In this document: positions 972 to 36,535 of the stretch, piece after piece | Layout of the letters: every line of letters starts with the position of its first letter | Position numbering within the stretch: the first letter of the stretch is position 1 | The notes under the pieces: model-generated | The model's database searches: none | The model's input: only the letters and a program-made list of their open reading frames with translations | Told to the model about the DNA's origin: nothing | Program-made: the position numbers and the translations under genes | DNA from: Thermanaerothrix sp. | Lineage (GTDB): Bacteria; Synergistota; Synergistia; Synergistales; Synergistaceae | NCBI GenBank assembly: GCA_026417795.1 | Contig: JAOACP010000021.1 | Coordinates: 1-36,697, forward strand | Length of the DNA stretch: 36,697 nucleotides | Reading direction: 5' to 3'

Positions 972-1318
972 TAAAGAGATTCCACGACATGACGCCGGTG
1001 AGGCGGGAGAACCTCCAAGGGGGCCAGGGAGGGGCGTGGAACCGGTACGCCATAGCCCCCCACGAGGAACTTCCGGGGAGCCACTTCCGCATGGTGGGCA
1101 CCATAAGGCTCGACCCCGGGGCGGAGGTGGGGGAGCACGAACACCTGACCAACGAGGAGCTCTACGTCATCCTTGAAGGGGAGGGCGTATACGTGGAGGA
1201 CGGGACGGAGTACAAGGTGGGGCCCGGGGACGTGCTGATGCTCCAGCGGACCCACTCCCACGCCATAAGGAACACCGGCAAGGGAGCTCTCACCTTCCTG
1301 GCGGTCATAGTGGACTGA
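968..1318 (+). CDS. Single-domain cupin protein
   Basis: 116 residues forming one cupin_2 beta-barrel. Motif 1 is visible as HEHLTNEELYVILEGEG (His, His, then Glu as likely metal ligands), and motif 2 as PGDVLMLQRTHSHAIRN with the last metal-ligand His. Such stand-alone cupins bind a divalent metal and act as small dioxygenases, isomerases or ligand sensors; the substrate cannot be read from the sequence. I chose ATG 968 rather than an upstream in-frame start because it overlaps the stop of the 55-aa Cys-rich gene (ATGA) and because the conserved fold begins just after it. The gene's last 14 bp overlap the convergent end of the minus-strand regulator. Confidence 0.85.
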   Translation: MIKRFHDMTPVRRENLQGGQGGAWNRYAIAPHEELPGSHFRMVGTIRLDPGAEVGEHEHLTNEELYVILEGEGVYVEDGTEYKVGPGDVLMLQRTHSHAIRNTGKGALTFLAVIVD

Positions 1319-3014
1319 CCCTTAGGGCAAGCCTCTTGACCCTTTCCAGCGCCGGGCCGCAGGACCTAAGGAAGCACCGGGCCCGGCGGATCTCCTCCTC
1401 CGAGGGGAAGCCCCTGCCGCAGGGCCGATCCGCGATCCCCGCCTCCTCAACCGCCATCCTGGCTCGAACCCCCATGGAGGAGCAGTAGCCCTCCACCAGG
1501 GCATCCCCCACAAGGCCTCCGTAGAAAGCCCCCATCTCCCAGGCGGTCACGTCCAGGTGGTTTGAAAGGCACCGTCCAAGCCAGAAGGCCAAGGACCCTT
1601 GGGCACGGCGCCGCCTCTCGCACTCCGGCATTATCCCAAGGGCCTTGCGCCGAAGGGTCTCATCCCTTGGGGCAAGCCACAGGTCGCCCCCCAGGGGGTC
1701 CCTGCAGGACACCACCAACTCACCATGCCCCCCGCCTTGCCCATCTTGGGCCCATATCTCCTCCCACACCGCCCCCAGGGGGGAAAGGCACACCCCCCAA
1801 AGGGAGTCCAGCCTCCAGTCAGTTTGAGATCCCTGGTTGGCGTTTATGATCTCGAAGCCGTCACAGCAGCTAAGCCACAGCGGATCGGCGGCGGCCACCA
1901 GGATGCGTAGACCCCTTCCCTTAGACGCCTTGGCCAACAGGGTCGACAAAAAATCACAGCACTCCCCTTCGGGCCGGTCCCTTAGGTTCACAAGAACCCC
2001 GCCGGCGGCCCGTCTGGCCAGTGCCTCCGAAACGGCTTCCGCCGTTTCCGCCCCCTTAAGGGCGTCTATCCGGTGCGTTAGTTCACCCCGCCAAAGCACC
2101 TCCAGGGCGGACAGCAGCGGGTTCGGCGAAGGGGAGGGCAGGTGGATGAGATCTACCGAGCCACCCTCTTGAGACAGGATCCTGACGGCGAGATCAAAGG
2201 CATTAGGTCCTGCCACGCACGTCACCGCCGCTTCCTCGGTTCCGCCCCGCTGTACCTTAGGGCTTCCCGCCAAGACCGCCGCTGGCATGGGGGGCACTAT
2301 GGCGTGGAAGTCGTTGAAGGCCCGACGGGAGGCGGAGATGCGGTTGAAGAGCTCCACCGTCTCCGGCGAGGGCATTATCCCATAGTCCCTGGCAAGCCGG
2401 TCCTTCAAGGTGTTGAACACCTCCACCGGCCCGGCGGACCAGCCGGACCGGTGGTACAGCTCCATGAGAGATCTGGCCGCCGCCTCGTCCAAGGGGTCCA
2501 TGGAGAAGGCCCGCTCAAACCACCTGGTGGCCCCCGCCTGGTCCCCCCTGCGAAGCAGCTCCGCCGCAAGCTCCTTCGCAAGGGCAGTGAACCGGCGGCG
2601 GTGCTCAAGGCGCCGTTCCGCAAGCCAGCTTCTAAACTCCTCCTCCTCCAGGTCGAAGCCCTCCAGGAACTCCCGCCCCAACCCGTCCCGGTCATCGTCG
2701 GATATTTCAAGGAAGCGGTCCATCATGTGAAGGTCCACGGCGCCCTCCGGAACCTCCAACGCCACAAGATCCCGCTGAAGGGACAGCATCCCGGGCGGCA
2801 GGAGGCGGCGCAGCACGTACACGGCGTTTCGCAGGTTCTTCCTTGCCAACGGCAGGTCCTTATCGCCCCAGAGCAGCCTGCACAGCCGGTCCCTGGATAC
2901 GAAGGACTGGTCGAAGAGGACGTAGGCCATGGCCTCCAGCTTCCTGAAGGGGAAACGCACCCGCTCCCCGTTCAGCTCCACCGAGGCCGGACCCGCAAGG
3001 GTTACCTTGAGCAT
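1305..3014 (-). CDS. SARP/BTAD-type transcriptional regulator with degenerate C-terminal half
   Basis: 569 residues from ATG 3014, with SD GGAGG ten bases upstream; a TTG at 3032 lies just before the SD. Residues 1 to about 95 form an OmpR-like winged helix (FPFRKLEAMAYVLFD, then DRLCRLLWGD and ARKNLRNAVYVLRR). Residues about 95-235 form a bacterial transcriptional activation domain, a TPR-like helical bundle (RWFERAFSMDPLDEAAARSL). The remaining 330 residues occupy the place of the STAND/AAA ATPase of larger relatives but show no Walker A P-loop. It follows tupC by 82 bp on the same strand, so it may be the last gene of the tungstate operon; its target is unknown. Its 3' end overlaps the convergent cupin gene by 14 bp. 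Confidence 0.75.
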   Translation of the reverse strand: MLKVTLAGPASVELNGERVRFPFRKLEAMAYVLFDQSFVSRDRLCRLLWGDKDLPLARKNLRNAVYVLRRLLPPGMLSLQRDLVALEVPEGAVDLHMMDRFLEISDDDRDGLGREFLEGFDLEEEEFRSWLAERRLEHRRRFTALAKELAAELLRRGDQAGATRWFERAFSMDPLDEAAARSLMELYHRSGWSAGPVEVFNTLKDRLARDYGIMPSPETVELFNRISASRRAFNDFHAIVPPMPAAVLAGSPKVQRGGTEEAAVTCVAGPNAFDLAVRILSQEGGSVDLIHLPSPSPNPLLSALEVLWRGELTHRIDALKGAETAEAVSEALARRAAGGVLVNLRDRPEGECCDFLSTLLAKASKGRGLRILVAAADPLWLSCCDGFEIINANQGSQTDWRLDSLWGVCLSPLGAVWEEIWAQDGQGGGHGELVVSCRDPLGGDLWLAPRDETLRRKALGIMPECERRRRAQGSLAFWLGRCLSNHLDVTAWEMGAFYGGLVGDALVEGYCSSMGVRARMAVEEAGIADRPCGRGFPSEEEIRRARCFLRSCGPALERVKRLALRVSPL

Positions 3015-3096
3015 CGCAAACCGCACCTCCAAACCGGGGAACTGGGAAACTCAAAAAATCCCCCGATGTCCTCGGCCTTTAAGCCCCACAGGTCAA

Positions 3097-3771
3097 CTAT
3101 GTTACAACCCTTTGGTCCCTTGAGCCATAGGCGCCGATTAGCCTTCCATCCCTCATCACCAGGAAGCCCTCGCAAAATCCGGACAGCCAGGCGGGCTGAT
3201 GGCTGCTCACCAGCACCGAGGTCCCCCACCGGTCCCGGGCCTGGATGACCGCCCCCCTCACCACCTGGGCGGCCTCCTGGTCCACGTTGGACACCGGCTC
3301 GTCCAAAAGCAGCACCCTAGGCCTTAAGGCCAGCCTCACCGCCAGGGCCACCCTTTGGGCCTCGCCTCCGGACAGGCGGTACCAGGGCCGGTCCAGGTAG
3401 GCCTCTCCAAGCCCCACCATGTACAGGGCCTCCCGAGCCCGCTCCTCCCGGTCCGGTTCCCTCCATATGGGGCCCATCAGGTTGGCCCTCACGGAGCGTT
3501 TGAGAAGGCATGGCCGCTGAAGCAGCATTGTAATCCCCATGCCTCGAAGCAACGCCTCCCGCCCCTCCGAGGGCTCGCCGAAGAAGAGTATGCGTCCTGA
3601 CTGGGGCTTCATGAGCAACGCCAGGAGCTTCATCAAGGTGCTCTTGCCGCTGCCGTTGGGGCCGATGAGCCCCATCACCGCCCCCCGGGGTAGGGACAGT
3701 TCGTCCACCTCCAGGCGGTGCTGCCGGTCGTAGGAGAAGGAAAGGCCCTGGGCTTTGAGGGCGTCCGTCAT
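3097..3771 (-). CDS. tupC: Tungstate ABC transporter ATP-binding protein
   Basis: 224-residue ABC ATPase powering tungstate import with TupB, on the cytoplasmic face. It has Walker A GPNGSGKST (residues 37-45), a Q-loop near residue 85 (MLLQRPCLL), signature LSGGEAQ (133-139), Walker B VLLLDEP (153-159), and the H-loop His in SSHQPAWL. The start at 3771 is chosen because its ATG overlaps the tupB stop (ATGA) and has GGAGGG seven bases upstream; an upstream ATG at 3786 would lie inside tupB. Third gene of the tupABC operon. The family alone could also suggest a molybdate or phosphate transporter, but the adjacent TupA and TupB set the assignment. Confidence 0.9.
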   Translation of the reverse strand: MTDALKAQGLSFSYDRQHRLEVDELSLPRGAVMGLIGPNGSGKSTLMKLLALLMKPQSGRILFFGEPSEGREALLRGMGITMLLQRPCLLKRSVRANLMGPIWREPDREERAREALYMVGLGEAYLDRPWYRLSGGEAQRVALAVRLALRPRVLLLDEPVSNVDQEAAQVVRGAVIQARDRWGTSVLVSSHQPAWLSGFCEGFLVMRDGRLIGAYGSRDQRVVT

Positions 3772-4463
3772 CCCTTGGCCCTCCATCTCATCAGGGACAC
3801 GCAGGCGCTCACAAGGGAGGATATGATCAAAAGCACCAACCCTAACGCCACCGCCATGCCGAAGTCCCCCCGGGAGGCCTCGAAGGCTATGGCGGTGGTG
3901 AGCGTCCTGGTGTGCCAGCGGATGTTTCCCCCTATCATCATGGAGACCCCCACCTCGGAGACCACCCTTCCGTAGGCGGCGAGCAGCGCCATCATGAGGG
4001 CATGCCTCATCTCAAGGACCAGGGCCCAAAGGAGCCGCAGCCCCCTGAAGCCCAACGTCCTTAGGGTCATCACCACCAAAGGGTCCACGGACTCCACCGC
4101 CGAGGCCACCAGGGACACCAGCACCGGAAGGCCCAAAACCGCCTGCCCTATGGCCATCCCCCACAGGGTGAAAAGCAGCTCAAACCTCCCGAAGGGCCCC
4201 TGGTTCGATATGAAGCCATACACCACAAGGCCCACCACCACGGTGGGCACCGACAACAGGCTGTCGAAGAGAAGCCTCAAGGCCCTTCTTCCGGGGAAGC
4301 GCAGGGCCCCAAGGGCGATGCCCACCGGGAGCCCCACCGCGGAAGCCATGCACATGGCAAGAAAGCTGGACTTCACCGTAACGGCAGCCACGTTCAGCAG
4401 TTCCTCGTCCATGGAGAGGATTATCCTCACGGCCTCCAACATCCCCTCCCTAAGGAAGTCCAT
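3768..4463 (-). CDS. tupB: Tungstate ABC transporter permease
   Basis: 231-residue inner-membrane permease of the MetI/BPD type with five to six hydrophobic spans (for example LLFDSLLSVPTVVVGLVVYG and FGMAVALGLVLLIISSLVSA). The EAA-type cytoplasmic loop contacting the ATPase is probably around TLRTLGFRGLRLLWALVLEM. The AAYGRVVSEVGVSMMIGGN segment is typical of the TupB/molybdate permease family. The ATG at 4463 has AGGAG about nine bases upstream. It lies 18 bp after tupA and overlaps tupC by 4 bp (ATGA), consistent with one transcript. Confidence 0.9.
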   Translation of the reverse strand: MDFLREGMLEAVRIILSMDEELLNVAAVTVKSSFLAMCMASAVGLPVGIALGALRFPGRRALRLLFDSLLSVPTVVVGLVVYGFISNQGPFGRFELLFTLWGMAIGQAVLGLPVLVSLVASAVESVDPLVVMTLRTLGFRGLRLLWALVLEMRHALMMALLAAYGRVVSEVGVSMMIGGNIRWHTRTLTTAIAFEASRGDFGMAVALGLVLLIISSLVSACVSLMRWRAKG

Positions 4464-5403: not shown

Positions 5404-5440
5404 AAAAAAACGCCGGTCCCCAATCTCTCCAGGAACCGGC
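5404..5440 (-). terminator. Intrinsic terminator/attenuator upstream of tupA
   Basis: Read on the minus strand: a 9-bp stem GCCGGTTCC / GGGACCGGC (5440-5432 with 5420-5412, one G-U pair) around an 11-base loop, followed by G and seven T. It lies between the riboswitch-like leader and tupA in the same orientation, so it is best read as the regulated expression platform and not a simple gene end. Confidence 0.88.
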
Positions 5441-5461
5441 CCCGTGATCCGCCAAGGTATA

Positions 5462-5567
5462 TCGGATTCCCTCCTTTCCAAACGCGGGAGGCCCAGGGGT
5501 TTCCCCCCGGACCCTTCGGTCCCTCCCCATAGGAATTACCCCTTAGGGAAGAGGACTCGGAGGCCGT
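5462..5567 (-). ncRNA. Moco/Tuco-like riboswitch in the tupA leader
   Basis: On the minus strand the leader begins about 7 bases after a good -10 box. It shows conserved-looking strings that I associate with the molybdenum/tungsten cofactor (Moco/Tuco) RNA: CGGCCTCCGAG at the 5' side, GGGCCTCCCGCG, and GGAAAGGAGG at the 3' side. CCTCC (5563-5559) pairs with GGAGG and CGG pairs with CCG to form P1. Internal hairpins include GGACC/GGTCC closed by a GAAG-like loop, GGGG/CCCC around GGAAA, and a CTCTTCCC/GGGGAGG arm. A terminator follows before tupA. The family assignment is from memory of the consensus and needs a covariance search. The structured leader itself is strongly supported. Confidence 0.6.
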
Positions 5568-5572
5568 TATTC

Positions 5573-5600
5573 AATATACCACATGCCAAAGCCCAGTCAA
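5573..5600 (-). promoter_or_regulatory. Promoter of the tupABC operon
   Basis: Minus-strand -35 TTGACT (5600-5595), 16-bp spacer, -10 TATATT (5578-5573). Transcription should begin near 5566, exactly at the 5' edge of the riboswitch-like structure. It sits in the gap after the GntR gene stop (5613), so tup transcription can be independent of it. Confidence 0.75.
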
Positions 5601-29325: not shown

Positions 29326-29465
29326 GGTTTTTCGGAATAAACTTAATTTTCTATTACGGTTTTTGAGTGTTAACATGAACGAAAGACCCCTTGCCCTCAC
29401 GGCGGCGCCGCTTTGGCCGCCGCAGGCGGGGAGTTGTTTTAGAAGATGTAAAACTTAAAAACTTA

Positions 29466-29566
29466 AAGGCCCGGCTGTTTCAGGAAGTCCGGTGGGAATC
29501 CGGCGCAGCCCCGCTACGGTATGGACGGTTATGGCCGTCTAAGCCCGACACTGGCGCCTGGGCCTT
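29466..29566 (+). ncRNA. Cobalamin riboswitch controlling btuB
   Basis: The conserved B12 core is present: GGAAGTCCGGTGGGAATCC followed by GGCGCAGCCCCGCTACGGT, and a B12-box-like GACACTGG near the 3' end. P1 closes as AAGGCCC (29466-29472) with GGGCCTT (29560-29566). A terminator follows before the TonB-dependent receptor, so binding of adenosyl- or methylcobalamin should shut off btuB. Confidence 0.93.
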
Positions 29567-29615
29567 GAGTTGCGTCCACCCCTCGAGGGCGGGGGAGGGC
29601 GCCGTTTTGCGTTTT

Positions 29616-29639: not shown

Positions 29640-29773
29640 GTGCTTGATTTTTGGAACGCCCCTTGAGGGCGTGGGGGAGGTGGGTGATTCGAAAGCGTGA
29701 TCTTGCCTTTTTCGTCTCTTGCGGTCTTCGGTGGTTTGATGTGTATTTTTTGTTTTCCGAAGGAGTGATCCCG

Positions 29774-31657
29774 TTGATTAAGGTTCCGCGTTTGTGGGGC
29801 CCTTTTGGGCGTTTGGGCCTTTCGGCTATGGTTTTAGTCCTGTGGTTGGCTCCCCCCTCGGCCTTTGGAATGGAGGTTCCCGTGGTAGAGGTCACCGGCT
29901 CCCGGCTGGCGGAGGACATGTCGGACCTGCCGTCCCAGGGGTACGTCATAACCTCCGCCGACATGGCCGCCCGGGGCTTTCAGAACCTTCAGGAGGCCCT
30001 GGACTCCCTGCCCGGCGTCACTGGGCTCGTGAACGGCGCCGCCATGGCCCAGTCCAAGGGCATATCCATAAGGGGCATGACCACCGAGACGCTCCTTCTG
30101 GTGGACGGGGTGCCCTTCATGACCTCCAGTTACGGCACCGGGCCGGTGTTGGGAGCCCCCTTTGACTTAAGATCCATACCCCTGAGCTCCGTGGAGAGGG
30201 TGGAGGTGGTTAAGGGGGCTTCCTCCGCCCTTTACGGCTCCCACGGCGCCGCGGGAGTCATAAACGTCATAACCTCCAAGGGGGCCGAAGCTTCCCAAAG
30301 GCCCCTGGAGGTTCGGTTCACCGCCGGTTCCGGCGGTTACCGGGCTGGATCCTTCACCGCCTCCGCCGCATCCCAATCCCTTTGGGTTAGGGCCTCATAT
30401 TCAAGGGAGGATGAGGGGGAGCGGGAGATGAGGCTCAGGAGCAACGGCCTTAAGGACTTCTCAAGGGATTACAGCTCCAACCACTACGGCCTGTCCGTGG
30501 GATCCGCCGAGGGCCGATGGGAGCTCACAAGCCAGTGGGGGGACTACTCGTCCCGCTGGACCTACAACGGTGATGAGAACCGGCAGGAGAACAGCTATTC
30601 CCGGGTGGTCCTCGGGGTGCCCCTGGGGGGACTGAAGCTGAAGGGCTACTACGGTGAATCCGCCAAGAGGGTGTTCGACAGCAGCGGCAGGAGCGACTAC
30701 CGGGACCGGAACATGGGCCTGTCCCTGGAGGGGCGGGGGCGGCTTTGGGGCAACGCCTCCGCCTTCGGCCTGGAGCTTCGGCGGGACGACTCCGACTACC
30801 TCAACGCCGACAACCCCTGGGGCAACAACGACCCCTACGACCTTAAGAGGGACGCGGTCATGGTATACGGCGAGACAACGGTCCCCTTGGGGGATATCAC
30901 CGCGGACCTGGGGCTGAGGTATGAGAGGTGGCATGTGGAGGGCGGCGATAACCAGTCGGAGCTGTCCCCTAAGCTGTCCCTTTACCGGGAGGATGCTGGG
31001 GGCAGGCTTTGGTACCTTTCCGCCGGGAGGTTCTTCGTGATGCCCAGCTTCTTCCAGATTTACATGCCCATGAGGAGTTTCGGGGAGCCGAACTACGACT
31101 TAAGGCCCGAGAAGGGATGGAGCTACGAAGGGGGAGTCAAGGGCAGGGACCGCTCCTGGAGCTTAGGCGTCTTCTATACCCAGGTGGACGACAAGATAAC
31201 CTACCAGTCCGATCCCGTGACTTGGGTAGGAAAGTACGTGAACCTGGACAGGTACCGGGCCTACGGGGTTGAGGGTGGCTTCTCGCTTAAGCTCTCCGAG
31301 GAGTTTTCGTACCGTCAAGGGGCCTCTTGGACCTATGGTGAGGAGTTAAGCGGCGGCGTCTGGCGTAGGTCCCAGGATCCAAGGTGGGACCTTTCGGGCA
31401 CCTTGAGCTGGGCCAAGGGGCCCTGGAGGGCGGACCTTACCGGCCGGTTCTACGGCGACAGGGCCATCCGCAACAACAGCCGCGGGTACTCCGATGAGGA
31501 CATGTTCCTGCTGGACGGCTCGGTGGCCTTCGCCTCCGGCGACCTTTCGGTGAGGGTCGGGGGCCGCAACCTGTTCGACCGGCGGTACGTGCTGGACAAG
31601 GAGGGGTACCTTACCCCGGAGCGTAGGCTTTACATATCCCTGGATGCCAGGTTTTAG
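29774..31657 (+). CDS. btuB: TonB-dependent cobalamin receptor
   Basis: 627 residues, outer membrane. A signal peptide (LGLSAMVLVLWLAPPSAFG) is followed by a TonB-box-like VPVVEVTGSR and a plug domain (about 45-160: LQEALDSLPGVTGLV, ISIRGMTTETLLLVDGVP, ERVEVVKGASSALYG, GVINVIT). A 22-strand barrel ends in RRLYISLDARF, whose terminal Phe is the assembly signal. TTG 29774 follows AGGAG with eight-base spacing; the longer frame from 29651 has no signal-peptide logic. The upstream cobalamin riboswitch and the convergent btuFDC operon assign it to vitamin B12. It converges with tonB, with 19 bp between the stops. Confidence 0.92.
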   Translation: MIKVPRLWGPFGRLGLSAMVLVLWLAPPSAFGMEVPVVEVTGSRLAEDMSDLPSQGYVITSADMAARGFQNLQEALDSLPGVTGLVNGAAMAQSKGISIRGMTTETLLLVDGVPFMTSSYGTGPVLGAPFDLRSIPLSSVERVEVVKGASSALYGSHGAAGVINVITSKGAEASQRPLEVRFTAGSGGYRAGSFTASAASQSLWVRASYSREDEGEREMRLRSNGLKDFSRDYSSNHYGLSVGSAEGRWELTSQWGDYSSRWTYNGDENRQENSYSRVVLGVPLGGLKLKGYYGESAKRVFDSSGRSDYRDRNMGLSLEGRGRLWGNASAFGLELRRDDSDYLNADNPWGNNDPYDLKRDAVMVYGETTVPLGDITADLGLRYERWHVEGGDNQSELSPKLSLYREDAGGRLWYLSAGRFFVMPSFFQIYMPMRSFGEPNYDLRPEKGWSYEGGVKGRDRSWSLGVFYTQVDDKITYQSDPVTWVGKYVNLDRYRAYGVEGGFSLKLSEEFSYRQGASWTYGEELSGGVWRRSQDPRWDLSGTLSWAKGPWRADLTGRFYGDRAIRNNSRGYSDEDMFLLDGSVAFASGDLSVRVGGRNLFDRRYVLDKEGYLTPERRLYISLDARF

Positions 31658-31676: not shown

Positions 31677-32417
31677 TCAGTCCTTAAGGCTGAATCGGAA
31701 GGGGATTAGTACGGTGCCGCTCAGGTCCTCCTTAAAGCGCCAATCCATGGCGGCCCTTTTGGCCGCTTCGTCAAGGGCTTTGTGGCCGCTGGAGGACCTT
31801 ATCTCCCCCCGCTCCGGGCGTCCTCGGCTCACCCAAAGGCACACCACCACGGTGCCCTCCTCCCCCCTCCGCCGAGAGGAAAGGGGGTAGGGGGGCACCG
31901 ACCTTCTCACCGCCAGGTCCCTCCCGTCCAGCTCTAGGGCCCCTTCGGGGGGATCCGCCGCGCCGGAGGTGGAAGGCGCCTGTGGCCCCATGGGGCCGGT
32001 CTCATCTAGGACGCCCTTCCCGTCCGATTGCCCCGCTGAGAGGGGGGCTTCCGCCTTGGGGCCCCAGTCTTGCGCGTCTTGTAAATTTTGTAAATTAGGT
32101 TTATGGGCGGTTTCCACCCCGGGGGACCTTCCATCTTCGGCTAAGGCATCCTTAGCTTTGCTGTAAGGGGCCCCTTGGACTCCTTGGGGGTGAGCCGCTT
32201 CCTTTGTCCTATGTCCTAGGTCTTCGCCAGGCCCTGGCGGGATGGTTGGCGGCGATTTTGGTGTGAGGGGGGCTTGGGGCTCCATGGCCACCGTTATGGC
32301 CATCCGGCGGCTACGCGTCTCTTCCTTGTAGATCCCCTCACCCAGGGCCCAGGGCAGGGCCCAAAGGGCCGCCCCGTGGAGCCCGAGGGCCAGCGCCGCC
32401 GCCGTGAGGCGTCTCAC
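31677..32417 (-). CDS. tonB: TonB energy transducer
   Basis: 246 residues. One N-terminal membrane anchor (LTAAALALGLHGAALWALPW) is followed by a Pro/Lys/Gly-rich periplasmic spacer (about 45-150) and a C-terminal TonB domain (about 165-246) with VPPYPLSSRRRGEEGTVVV and SSGHKALDEAAKRAAMDWRF. It passes proton-motive energy from ExbB-ExbD to BtuB. It is the last gene of the btuFDC-exbBD operon; its start overlaps the exbD stop (ATGA). The position suggests a dedicated transducer for B12. Confidence 0.92.
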   Translation of the reverse strand: MRRLTAAALALGLHGAALWALPWALGEGIYKEETRSRRMAITVAMEPQAPLTPKSPPTIPPGPGEDLGHRTKEAAHPQGVQGAPYSKAKDALAEDGRSPGVETAHKPNLQNLQDAQDWGPKAEAPLSAGQSDGKGVLDETGPMGPQAPSTSGAADPPEGALELDGRDLAVRRSVPPYPLSSRRRGEEGTVVVCLWVSRGRPERGEIRSSSGHKALDEAAKRAAMDWRFKEDLSGTVLIPFRFSLKD

Positions 32418-32797
32418 CTTGGTTCCTCCGTCAGAAGCCCCACGGAAGTGACCCCAAGGCTCTGAAGGGCCTCAAGGGCCTGGGCAACCCTTCCGTAGGG
32501 GGCGTCCCGGTGCGCCCCGAGCAGGACCTTGCAGCCCTTGCCATTGCCCTTTACGAGATCTTTGAGTCCTTCAAAGGACATGGGGCGGTTGTCCACCCTG
32601 AGGGACCCATCTTTGAGGACCGCCACGGTGATGGTCTTCGTCATCCCCTCCGTCACCGCCGAGCCCTTTCCGCTGGGGAGCAGCACGTCCTTCAGGTTGA
32701 GGCCCGCGAAGGAGGACGTGAGGACGAAGAAGATGATGAGGATGAAGAGCACGTCCAGCAGGGGCGTCATGTCGATATCAGGTCCGTTCCTCCTCAC
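32414..32797 (-). CDS. exbD: ExbD-type biopolymer transport protein
   Basis: 127 residues. One N-terminal membrane span, DMTPLLDVLFILIIFFVL, contains the essential membrane Asp (D15) that carries protons. A periplasmic domain (LLPSGKGSAV, ITVAVLKDGSLRVDN, VLLGAHRDAPYGRVAQALEAL) follows. It works with ExbB and TonB. Both ends overlap neighbours by 4 bp (ATGA with exbB upstream and tonB downstream). Confidence 0.94.
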   Translation of the reverse strand: MRRNGPDIDMTPLLDVLFILIIFFVLTSSFAGLNLKDVLLPSGKGSAVTEGMTKTITVAVLKDGSLRVDNRPMSFEGLKDLVKGNGKGCKVLLGAHRDAPYGRVAQALEALQSLGVTSVGLLTEEPR

Positions 32798-33471
32798 CCC
32801 AAGGACCCCACCTCCATCTTGCCCCCCCTGGGGCGCTGGGCTTGTGCTGGACCCTTGAACCTTGCAAGCACCACCCGGTCCGCCGCCCTGTTCAAGGCCT
32901 CTTCGTACCAGTCGATCATGTGCTGCAGGGCGATGAGCCCCGCCTGGGCGGGTATGGCGCAGGACAGCCCCGCCACGGTGGTGAAGAGGGCCACCCTGAT
33001 GCCCCTTGCCACCAACGAGGAGGCGGCCCCGGAGGAGCCTATGGCGGCGAACATCTGCACCATCCCTATGACGGTTCCCAAGAGGCCCAGCATGGGGGAG
33101 AGGCGGACGGACATCTCAAGCCACCGTAGCCCCTTCTGCTGTCTGAAGACCTCGCCCCTTATGAATACGCTTCCCCCTTCCCTCATGGCCTGAGCCCCAG
33201 CGTCCCAAAGGCCCACCAGTTCCTTGAGGAGATCCTTCAGCGGGCCGTCCTCTTGAAGGCGGAGGGCCTCCTCGGCGCCCCGAAGATCTCCGGAGGAAAG
33301 GGGGGCCAAAAGGGAGTTCAGTAGCCCCTCCGAGGAGGAGAGCTTGTTCCTTATGGACCTCATGAGGAAGAGCCGCTCTAGAAATATCCACGTGCCGCTG
33401 ACCGACAGGGCCAAGATGAGCCACATGATAGGGCCTCCTTCGTTCAGGAACCAAAGGGCGTGCTGCGCCAA
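32794..33471 (-). CDS. exbB: ExbB/MotA/TolQ proton channel family protein
   Basis: 225 residues. Three membrane spans: PIMWLILALSVSGTWIFLER, LSPMLGLLGTVIGMVQMFAA, and VALFTTVAGLSCAIPAQAGL, with the conserved LGLLGTVIGM. It forms the channel with ExbD. A much longer frame reaches 34317 but is antisense or out of frame to btuC. TTG 33471 is chosen because GAGGAGG (33487-33481) sits nine bases upstream and the protein then has normal ExbB length. It lies 77 bp after btuC, with no terminator between them, so it belongs to the same transcript. Confidence 0.92.
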   Translation of the reverse strand: MAQHALWFLNEGGPIMWLILALSVSGTWIFLERLFLMRSIRNKLSSSEGLLNSLLAPLSSGDLRGAEEALRLQEDGPLKDLLKELVGLWDAGAQAMREGGSVFIRGEVFRQQKGLRWLEMSVRLSPMLGLLGTVIGMVQMFAAIGSSGAASSLVARGIRVALFTTVAGLSCAIPAQAGLIALQHMIDWYEEALNRAADRVVLARFKGPAQAQRPRGGKMEVGSLG

Positions 33472-33548
33472 GCCGTTCAACCTCCTCTTATCGTTTGTCC
33501 TGTGGCCTTGTCCTTTTGTGTTTTTCCAATTTGCCCCCAGGGCGGTCC

Positions 33549-34499
33549 TTATCCTTGTCCTCTGATGAGCAGCCAGAGGAAGAAGAGGGCCCCTACGCCG
33601 GAGGTTATTATGCCCACCGGTATCTCCGATGGGGCCCAAAGGGTCCTGGCCGCCACGTCGCATAGCGTCAGCATGGAGCCCCCTATCATGGCGCTGGCGG
33701 AGAGGATCTCTCCCTGCCCCCTTGCGCCGGTCATCCTGGCCATGTGGGGGCCGAAGAGCCCCACGAAGCCTATGGGGCCGCACAGGGACACGCTGGAGGC
33801 CACCGCCATGGAGATCGTGGAGAACAGTATCAGCCGCACCGATTCCACCGGCACCCCCCGGCTCTTGGCCAGGATTGAGCCGCACCGGATCAGCTTTAGG
33901 TCTTGAAGGAAGAACCGGCACGCCAGCACGGTTATCCCAAGGGTCAGGAGGGCCGGCAGGAGTGGGTCCCAGCCTATCACCTGTATGCCCCCCATGGACC
34001 AGCGCATCATCCTGAAGGAGTCCGAGTAGCCCCCTCCGTACTGGATTATCATGTTGAGGCTTCCGAATAGGAAGCTGGCGGCCACCCCCGCCAGCATGAG
34101 CCCCTCCCCGGAGGGGTTCCGCCTTTGGGTCACCGCCCCTGCCGCCTGTATGAGCCCTATGGCCAGGGCGGAGCCCAGGAAGGCCCCGGCCCCCAATGGG
34201 ATGTTGAGCCCAAACCGTATGGCGCACACCGCCCCCAGCGCGGCGCCGGAGGACACCCCCATCACGTCCGGGGAGGCCAGGCTGTTCCTGAGCAGCACCT
34301 GGAAGACCGCCCCGCAAAGGCTCAAGGTGGCGCCGGTGGCGTAGCCCAGCAGCACCCTGGGAAGCCGCATCTCCATGAATATGGGGCTGTGGAGGGCTTT
34401 TTCAATCTCAAGGGGCACCTCCGCGGGGCCCATGAAGGGGCTTAGGATGATGATAGCCAGGGAGGCCATGGCCAGCCAAAGGTTACGTGGGCCTGTCAT
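33549..34499 (-). CDS. btuC: Cobalamin ABC transporter permease (FecCD family)
   Basis: 316 residues, about ten membrane spans. FecCD/BtuC strings: EMRLPRVLLGYATGATLSLC (RLPR), NSLASPDVMGVSSGAALG, SLNMIIQYGGGYSDSFRMMRWSMGG and CGPIGFVGLFGPHMAR (the typical GxIGFVGLxxPHxxR). It is the inner-membrane pore for cobalamin. ATG 34499 overlaps the btuD stop (ATGA); an upstream start at 34661 would lie within btuD. Iron-siderophore permeases share the family; the riboswitch and partner genes favour B12. Confidence 0.93.
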   Translation of the reverse strand: MTGPRNLWLAMASLAIIILSPFMGPAEVPLEIEKALHSPIFMEMRLPRVLLGYATGATLSLCGAVFQVLLRNSLASPDVMGVSSGAALGAVCAIRFGLNIPLGAGAFLGSALAIGLIQAAGAVTQRRNPSGEGLMLAGVAASFLFGSLNMIIQYGGGYSDSFRMMRWSMGGIQVIGWDPLLPALLTLGITVLACRFFLQDLKLIRCGSILAKSRGVPVESVRLILFSTISMAVASSVSLCGPIGFVGLFGPHMARMTGARGQGEILSASAMIGGSMLTLCDVAARTLWAPSEIPVGIITSGVGALFFLWLLIRGQG

Positions 34500-35293
34500 C
34501 GCAGCATGACCTCCGGCATCAAGCACCCCCTGCCCCGCTGGTCGGTGAGCATGACGAAGGGCACGTTGAAGACCTCCTCTAGCTCCGAGGGGCCTATCTG
34601 GTGCGGTGGAAGGGTGAAAAGCGCCTCCCCGTCCCTCATGGCCACCACCCGGTCCGCCCATGCCAATGCCAGGTTTACGTCGTGGGTCACCATCAGCATC
34701 CCCTTTTCTCCACCCGTCCCGCCGTCCTTAAGCGCCATGAGCAGGTTGAGCACCTCCTGTTGGTGCCGGTGGTCCAGGAACGCGGTGGGCTCGTCCAGCA
34801 GAAGACAAGGGGTCCCCTGTGCAAGGGCCGCGGCCATGAGGGCCCGTTGGCCCTCGCCGCCGCTTAGCTCCTCCATGGGGGTGTCCGCCAATGAGTCAAG
34901 CCCCACCACCCGCAGGGCCCCTTCCACCGCCTTGAGGTCCTCGGCCCCTAGGGGGTCGAAGGGCCCTTGCCAGGGGTACCGGGAGAGCTTGGCCAGCTCC
35001 CTTGGGGTCACCGGGGGGCGTCTTTCGGAGGGCTGGGGCACCATGGCCGCAATGCGGCTGATCTCCCTGGGCCTTAAGGTCCTAATGGGCTTGCCCATGG
35101 CCCATGCCTCTCCCTCGAAGGGCACCAGCCCCATCAGTGCCTTGAGCAGGGTGCTCTTCCCCGCCCCGTTGGGGCCTATGAGCGCCAGGGCCTCCCCCAG
35201 GCGAAGGGACAGGCTTAGGGCCTTCACGGCGGTCTTGGATTTGAAACGGACCGTGAGGTCCCGGGTCTTTAAGAGCTCATCCCCGTGGTTCAT
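34496..35293 (-). CDS. btuD: Cobalamin ABC transporter ATP-binding protein
   Basis: 265-residue ABC ATPase. Walker A GPNGAGKST (40-48), Q-loop in MVPQPSERRP (residue 87), signature LSGGEGQ (143-149), Walker B CLLLDEPT (163-170), H-loop in MVTHDVNLAL. It drives BtuC. ATG 35293 overlaps the btuF stop (ATGA) and has GGGAAG upstream; ATG 35320 is within btuF. A C-terminal extension of about 40 residues follows the NBD (EEVFNVPFVMLTDQRGRG), as in FecE/FhuC-type ATPases. Confidence 0.92.
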   Translation of the reverse strand: MNHGDELLKTRDLTVRFKSKTAVKALSLSLRLGEALALIGPNGAGKSTLLKALMGLVPFEGEAWAMGKPIRTLRPREISRIAAMVPQPSERRPPVTPRELAKLSRYPWQGPFDPLGAEDLKAVEGALRVVGLDSLADTPMEELSGGEGQRALMAAALAQGTPCLLLDEPTAFLDHRHQQEVLNLLMALKDGGTGGEKGMLMVTHDVNLALAWADRVVAMRDGEALFTLPPHQIGPSELEEVFNVPFVMLTDQRGRGCLMPEVMLR

Positions 35294-36330
35294 CGCTTCC
35301 CTGGGACCTCCTCTCCCCATATGGCGGAGGCGAACCCCTTAAGGGTCTTCGGCATCCTGGGGCCTGGACGTAGGTACAAGGTGCCCTCCAGTACCGCCAC
35401 CTTGTGGGACCTGACGGCTCCAAGCCACGGGAACGACCTCTCCCATTGGGCCAGGACGTTGTCCTTTTTGAACGTCTCCTTGCGGTTGAATGTGGAGGAT
35501 CCGTGGTAGAAGCGGCTGTCGCCGATTAGATCGATTATCACGTCGGGGTTCATGGCCATGAGCCCCTCAGGGTAGACCAGCGGGTATTGGGGGGAGCCTT
35601 TGGGAACGGCGTTGGTACCCCCCGCCATGGTTATCAGCTGGTCGTAGAATGTGCCGGGGCCTGCGGCGTAGAAGGACGTTATGCGGCTGCTTTCCATCTC
35701 CCGGGAGACGCACACCAGGACCTTGGGCTTCTTGGAGCTCCTGCGGGATTGGATGGCTTTGGCCGTTCGGTTCATCTGGGCCGTTATGGAGGAGGTGAGG
35801 GATCGTCCCTTATCGTTGACATTGCAGGCGGAGGCCAGTTCCCGTATCGATCTCAGCACGTCCTCCACGCTGTTCTGTCTTAGCATCACCCATGGTATCT
35901 TGGCCCTTAAGAGCTGCCTTGCCAGCGGGGAGTGGATGTCCTGGAGCACCACCAGGTCCGCCTTCATGGCCAAAAGCGACTCGATGCTCACGTCCGCGAA
36001 GCCCCCGATCTTAGGTTTGGAGAGGGCCTCCTTGGGGTGGTCGCAGAAGGTGGTGACCGCCGCCACGTTCGCTCCAAGTCCCAGGGCGAACAGGATCTCC
36101 GTGCCCGACGGCGATAGGGACACTATCCGCCTTGGGGCTCCGGCGGCTGGGCCGGCGGGGACCGCGAGGAGATGGAGAAGAAGAAGGACCGCCAGCCCGA
36201 AGGCCTTCGGAGTAGTTCCCCAAGGCTTTGGCCCGCCGGCGACGGACGAACGGGAAAAAACACAAAGGGGACCCCCGGCCCCCTTTTCACGATTCAAAAG
36301 ACCCGGATGATACATGCCCTCGCACAACAT
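35290..36330 (-). CDS. btuF: Cobalamin-binding periplasmic protein; start uncertain
   Basis: About 346 residues as drawn. A hydrophobic export signal (FGLAVLLLLHLLAVPAGPAAG) precedes a class III binding fold: RRIVSLSPSGTEILFALGLG, CDHPKEALSKPKIGGFADVS, ADLVVLQDIHSPL, a helical linker, and LVYPEGLMAMNPDVIIDLIG. It captures cobalamin in the periplasm for BtuCD. The start is unsettled. No ATG, GTG or TTG exists in frame between the upstream terminator and the signal. In-frame candidates are ATG 36330 (SD GGGGGGAG nine bases upstream, but that string is also the riboswitch P1 strand), ATG 36315 and TTG 36297. All would put the terminator inside the coding region. First gene of the B12 operon. Confidence 0.85.
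   Translation of the reverse strand: MLCEGMYHPGLLNREKGAGGPLCVFSRSSVAGGPKPWGTTPKAFGLAVLLLLHLLAVPAGPAAGAPRRIVSLSPSGTEILFALGLGANVAAVTTFCDHPKEALSKPKIGGFADVSIESLLAMKADLVVLQDIHSPLARQLLRAKIPWVMLRQNSVEDVLRSIRELASACNVNDKGRSLTSSITAQMNRTAKAIQSRRSSKKPKVLVCVSREMESSRITSFYAAGPGTFYDQLITMAGGTNAVPKGSPQYPLVYPEGLMAMNPDVIIDLIGDSRFYHGSSTFNRKETFKKDNVLAQWERSFPWLGAVRSHKVAVLEGTLYLRPGPRMPKTLKGFASAIWGEEVPGKR
36255..36287 (-). terminator. Attenuator terminator of the btuF riboswitch
   Basis: Minus-strand stem AAAGGGG (36286-36280) / CCCCTTT (36270-36264) with a GC-rich loop, followed by GTG and six T (36260-36255). It lies downstream of the cobalamin aptamer and before the BtuF signal sequence. Confidence 0.75.
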
Positions 36331-36334
36331 CCTT

Positions 36335-36535
36335 CCAGGCTCCCCCCGGGTTTTCTGGCTTGCGGGCCGCGGGGTCTTGTCCGGAGCTGCGGCACGGGGC
36401 CGCCGCTTTTGACCCGTCGGCTTGCTTACAGTAGCGGGGCTGCCCCGGATTCTCACCGGGTTGCCCCGAGGGGCCGTCGTATTTTTTGTATGTCCTTTTG
36501 TCTTTGCGACGTTGATCCGCCTCGGGGGGCTTGGG
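36335..36535 (-). ncRNA. Cobalamin riboswitch controlling the btuFDC-exbBD-tonB operon
   Basis: On the minus strand: GGTGAGAATCC followed by GGGGCAGCCCCGCTACTGT, a P6-region arm, and a 3' B12 box AAGCCAGAAAACCC. P1 closes as CCCAAGCCCCCCG (near 36534) with CGGGGGGAGCCTGG (near 36340). It is preceded by a consensus promoter and followed by an intrinsic terminator, so high cobalamin should switch the operon off. Confidence 0.93.

Follow-up and report, generated by a model that had tools for sequence, protein, structure and literature searches.

What controls expression of the tungstate importer genes tupABC is the question raised by the leader that precedes them in the window, by which we mean the whole 36,697-nucleotide stretch analyzed, contig C21 of a 1.92-Mb draft genome of Thermanaerothrix sp. 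An earlier note, made from the sequence, had described a promoter, a multi-hairpin leader with characteristic strings, a terminator and tupA as a Moco/Tuco-like riboswitch with an attenuator; all of these elements are present on the minus strand, in the claimed order (Table 1). We put the probability at roughly 80% that the tup leader works as an OFF riboswitch, belonging to the Moco RNA family in its P3-less Tuco/WCo form and acting by transcription attenuation. It is a clean further example of a known riboswitch type and no new system.

P3-less elements of this family have been proposed, from gene context, as sensors of the tungsten cofactor (Regulski et al. 2008, PMC2408646), and the phylum of the window is absent from the list in the abstract of that study. 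The tungsten-cofactor riboswitch rests on gene context, and discrimination between molybdenum and tungsten by P3-less forms has so far only been proposed. The Synergistales are a natural experiment in this respect, with both types in single genomes, P3-less at a tungstate importer and P3-bearing at a molybdopterin enzyme. The window, from a genus that includes thermophiles, offers a compact case for testing, with one element, one promoter, one terminator and one operon.

An Rfam covariance search of the leader returned a single strong match, to the Moco/Tuco RNA family RF01055, at positions 5574-5455 of the minus strand. The match spans the full model (1-135 of 135) and scores 80.5 bits (E 3.7e-18) against a curated gathering score of 36 bits; it is the only RF01055 element found in this genome, and the aptamer is identical to that of one same-genus genome. 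The leader carries the strings CCTCCGAG (5563-5556), GGCCTCCCG and GGAAAGGAGG (5479-5470) on the minus strand, and the alignment showed the GNRA (GAAA) P4 tetraloop of the family as a GGAAAC loop, together with the junction strings CUCCGAG, CUAAG, AGGG, CCUCCC and GGAAAGGAGG. The P3 positions of the model are gaps in the alignment and the other helices are present; the aptamer thus has no P3 hairpin of the kind that marks the P3-bearing Moco type. Folding energy alone left the leader unremarkable (z about -1.5), so its identification rests on the covariance match together with comparative covariation. The same energy value would suit a chance resemblance, that is, hairpins and a terminator without a riboswitch, but the strength of the covariance match already refutes that reading, conserved covarying homologs precede tup genes elsewhere, and we give it practically no weight.

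Comparative evidence came from 61 searched genomes, 47 of which contain RF01055 elements, most carriers having more than one. In an alignment of 43 P3-less Synergistales elements, the window included, paired cells amounted to 94.6% versus 77.9% in shuffles, changes on both sides were seen at 20 of 29 pairs, and the covariation score was 0.51 versus 0.18 in shuffles; the signal collapsed when pairing partners were slid by 1-3 columns. This covariation indicates that P1, P2 and P4 are RNA helices under selection. The assignment to Moco RNA made in the earlier note was therefore borne out twice, by a strongly positive covariance-model search and by covarying pairs in related leaders.

Table 1. 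Coordinates of the tup leader elements and tup genes in the window.
Feature	Positions	Strand	Evidence
tupA, tungstate-binding protein, 280 aa	4482-5324	-	NF041772, 250 bits, E 2.5e-74; below the equivalog cut-off of 400
tupB, permease	3768-4463	-	NF041773, 231 bits (cut-off 320); ModB model only 75.7 bits
tupC-like ATPase	3097-3786	-	NF041774 best family, 146.7 bits, E 7.5e-43 (cut-off 400); ABC_tran
Promoter-like site, sigma-70-like: -35 TTGACT (5600-5595), 16-nt spacer, -10 TATATT (5578-5573)	5573-5600	-	motif match
RF01055 Moco/Tuco aptamer, P3-less (putative tungsten-cofactor type), full model length	5455-5574	-	80.5 bits vs gathering score 36
P1 5' strand CCUCC	5559-5563	-	homologous P1 covaries (helix 1)
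P1 3' strand GGAGG	5470-5474	-	homologous P1 covaries (helix 1)
Short CGAA junction between P2 and P4, in place of the missing P3	5515-5518	-	alignment gaps at P3 model positions
P4 hairpin, GAAA tetraloop	5489-5514	-	alignment; helix 5, two-sided changes at 6 of 11 pairs
Candidate antiterminator A: P1 3' side GGGAAUC (5471-5465) with terminator 5' arm GGUUCCU (5437-5431)	5431-5471	-	general type in relatives
Candidate antiterminator B: P1 5' side CGGCCUC (5566-5560) with GGGGCCG (5443-5437)	5437-5566	-	minimum-energy pairing while terminator half transcribed
Intrinsic terminator: 12-bp hairpin 5440-5412 and T7 5410-5404	5404-5440	-	sequence; terminators at same position in relatives

TupA, TupB and TupC each scored best against their own tungstate-importer models, all below the strict equivalog cut-offs. 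The TupA cut-off was passed in only 1 of the 61 genomes, indicating that it is tight for this group. The start codon of tupA is probably the ATG at 5324-5322. Family searches of the window's own genome identified three W-type enzymes, AOR-type oxidoreductases encoded by AFOR_C genes, and further four XDH-family (Mo-type) subunits, two MoeA, one ModA and one weak PF00384 match. The occurrence of Mo-type enzymes and ModA beside AOR-type enzymes indicates that the genome probably makes both cofactors, Moco included. As far as sequence can tell, the best-matching families of TupABC, though below strict cut-offs, and the three AFOR_C genes are the gene context of the Tuco/WCo variant. A single-protein query with TupA against the genome contigs found no relative, and a DNA similarity search against plasmids gave no match. 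A large gene for a BTAD-domain regulator (1305-3032, minus strand) follows tupC after about 65 nt; it is kept in that place in three genomes of the genus (cluster c19) and was not seen behind tup genes in the other genera of the set.

The promoter-like site matches at 10/12, and three such sites were found in 6 kb where 0.6 were expected. From it transcription would start at about 5567-5566, which would put the P1 5' strand at the very start of the RNA. An automatic scan found a terminator-like hairpin starting within 60 nt of the aptamer at 54 of 121 RF01055 elements, many of them 0-12 nt after it. Across these 54 leaders, pairing of the P1 3' strand with the terminator 5' arm averaged -11.3 kcal/mol versus -8.0 for shuffled arms and fell in the best 5% in 22 (about 3 expected); the P1 5' strand did so in only 6, and in general pairs no better with the terminator arm than with shuffled arms. 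Within the window, pairing with the terminator 5' arm reached -15.9 kcal/mol for the P1 5' strand (1 of 100 shuffles did as well) and -10.7 kcal/mol for the P1 3' strand (7 of 100). Folds of the growing transcript, which as minimum-energy folds model neither ligand nor kinetics, gave the P1-5' antiterminated form as the minimum at lengths of 139-159 nt and, from 163 nt onward, P1 together with the terminator, and the same P1-5' pairing appeared at 143-158 nt in another species of the genus (G001). The P1 5' strand as sole antiterminator, which wins in the window's own folds, was dropped, the P1 3' strand being the general partner in relatives. Antiterminators A and B would compete with each other, and both are kept as candidates.

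Judged by sequence and folding, the terminator 5' arm and P1 would be mutually exclusive via the antiterminator, and the arrangement would be an OFF attenuator because closed P1 means terminator. When the tungsten cofactor is plentiful, it would bind the nascent aptamer and hold P1 closed, a role of the ligand suggested by the family; the terminator 5' arm would then be free, the terminator hairpin would form, and tupABC would not be transcribed. When the cofactor is scarce, a P1 strand would pair with the terminator 5' arm, the terminator would fail, and the importer would be made. The RNA would in this way exert end-product feedback on tungstate uptake. Relatives, where P1 also appears to compete with the terminator arm in a conserved way, support the attenuator of the earlier note.

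Control might instead be mainly translational, with the ribosome site masked by a CCCCTCCC / GGGGG pair and the hairpin acting as a minor or constitutive stop. Such ribosome-site hiding has been proposed for E. coli moaA, and inspection suggests that CCCCTCCC downstream of the window terminator could pair with AAAAGGGGG before tupA; the leader hairpin of G001, in addition, has a poor U-tract. The window itself, however, contains a 12-bp hairpin with T7 of canonical form, many relatives are likewise terminator-like at this position, the terminator arm is complementary to P1 strands, and more than 130 nt separate P1 from the ribosome site downstream, which together make mainly translational control improbable. 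More improbable still is a protein that senses tungstate or the cofactor and recognizes the RNA or the promoter, the RNA itself not being the sensor. That the discoverers of the family showed no direct binding of Moco or Tuco, which are unstable ligands (PMC2408646), would leave room for such a protein, but the size, conservation and covariation of the element are those of metabolite aptamers.

With transcription attenuation by the RNA preferred, the identity of the ligand bears on the presence or absence of P3, which we scored by inspection of all elements of at least 128 nt. Five elements (E037, E039, E041, E076 and E099) taken as P3-bearing by that length proved on inspection to be long in P2, not P3, and were counted as P3-less. 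In the Synergistales set, P3 was present in 0 of 45 elements directly upstream of tupA-type genes, in 11 of 24 directly upstream of a molybdopterin aldehyde oxidoreductase (NF045668) and in 2 of 2 before true modABC; the TupA and oxidoreductase counts differ at Fisher p 1.4e-6, a value that ignores the kinship of the genomes. Nine genomes, which are related and not independent samples, hold both P3 types, and there P3 is missing from all tupA elements and present in all oxidoreductase elements. An exception is provided by 11 other Synergistales genomes, in which P3-less elements precede the same oxidoreductase. On this comparative basis, a split between molybdenum and tungsten by P3 is supported, though not as an absolute rule. 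The Tuco-type reading of the earlier note is likewise favored by the missing P3, the downstream tupABC, the three AOR-type oxidoreductases and the P3 pattern across Synergistales.

The exception would be expected if one and the same riboswitch sensed the molybdenum and tungsten cofactors, or a shared intermediate, indiscriminately and P3 had been lost by lineage drift. The window's own genome, with Mo-type and W-type enzymes and only one RF01055 element, would also fit such a sensor. Deletion of P3 from the E. coli RNA, moreover, destroyed regulation and did not switch specificity (PMC2408646), and a missing P3 therefore does not prove that an element is specific for tungsten. Yet the E. coli Moco RNA ignores tungstate supply (PMC2408646), and the full sorting by gene in the nine genomes with both types is at odds with drift, which would not sort within a genome. 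We therefore consider indiscriminate sensing unlikely, though well short of negligible, and infer that the ligand of the window aptamer is the tungsten cofactor.

At two loci (L048 and L076), P3-bearing elements precede moeA and, farther along, an AOR-type gene, whose frame in L076 runs on into a MobA-like domain; a Mo-type element before an AOR-family gene either breaks the P3 rule or points to an AOR that uses molybdenum. Seven others (L041, L050, L054, L061, L067, L071 and L074) share a conserved pair of elements, a P3-less one before a gene for a DpiA-like response regulator and then, in the same region, a P3-bearing element with a long P5 before the molybdopterin aldehyde oxidoreductase; tupA in these genomes has P3-less elements.

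Compared with the Moco RNA described by Regulski et al. (2008; RF01055, PMC2408646), the window aptamer shares P1, P2 with its internal region, P4 with the GAAA loop, P5 and the core strings CUCCGAG, AGGG, CCUCCC and GGAAAGG, and differs in lacking P3, like about a third of the 2008 set (58/176; PMC2408646). Terminator platforms have been described for the family (PMC2408646). With the Tuco/WCo variant (PMC2408646; named WCo in PMC9971707) it has in common the missing P3, a tungstate transporter downstream and a host with AOR-type enzymes; there is no difference of substance, the platform in the window being a terminator with a candidate P1-strand antiterminator. WCo elements near tungstate transporters have already been reported as frequent (PMC9971707).

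Tandem Moco/WCo riboswitches are also known, from S. wolfei (PMC2408646) and from a tandem survey (PMC9481103), and relatives of the window likewise have two serial elements before tupA, whereas the window has one. Tandem RF01055 elements about 310-390 nt apart precede tupABC in 11 fetched Synergistaceae relatives (L040, L042, L045, L049, L053, L060, L062, L066, L068, L072 and L073), and further pairs were also seen. In these 11, the first element is standard, and in most a terminator comes after it. The second, for which no terminator was found, sits close to tupA, at most about 100 nt from its start codon. Unlike in known tandems, it is a divergent subtype rather than a near copy of the first: its conserved core has UCCCUGAA replacing CUCCGAG, together with CGUUAGGGCGG and CGUCUCCC, and it keeps the fold, with covariation. 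With a model of the divergent subtype, scores were 75-122 bits in 18 genomes of the Synergistaceae; in the rest of the phylum, where the model matched ordinary elements, they did not exceed 72. In two genomes (L035 and L065) only the divergent subtype is present at tupA, and the genus of the window has a single element there and no second divergent aptamer. The literature searched yielded no description of the UCCCUGAA subtype, which we regard as a somewhat novel by-product of the analysis.

A more speculative proposal, which we would not expect to hold in full, is that the family in Synergistales has been split by gene into separately tuned sensors, P3-less forms serving tungstate import and P3-bearing forms molybdenum enzymes, with the UCCCUGAA-core elements of Synergistaceae as a third subtype that stands behind the first at tupA, uses a different platform and may read a different form or concentration of the cofactor. 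The window would then be the single-element version of this arrangement.

Two further riboswitches were noted in the window. An AdoCbl riboswitch (RF01482, 70.8 bits, 29455-29606, plus strand) precedes a TonB-dependent-receptor-like gene (29651-31657) that looks BtuB-like by eye, and a cobalamin riboswitch (RF00174, 34.1 bits, partial model, 36348-36466, minus strand) precedes genes at 31677-36456 that by eye are BtuF/BtuD/BtuC-like and ExbB/TonB-like.
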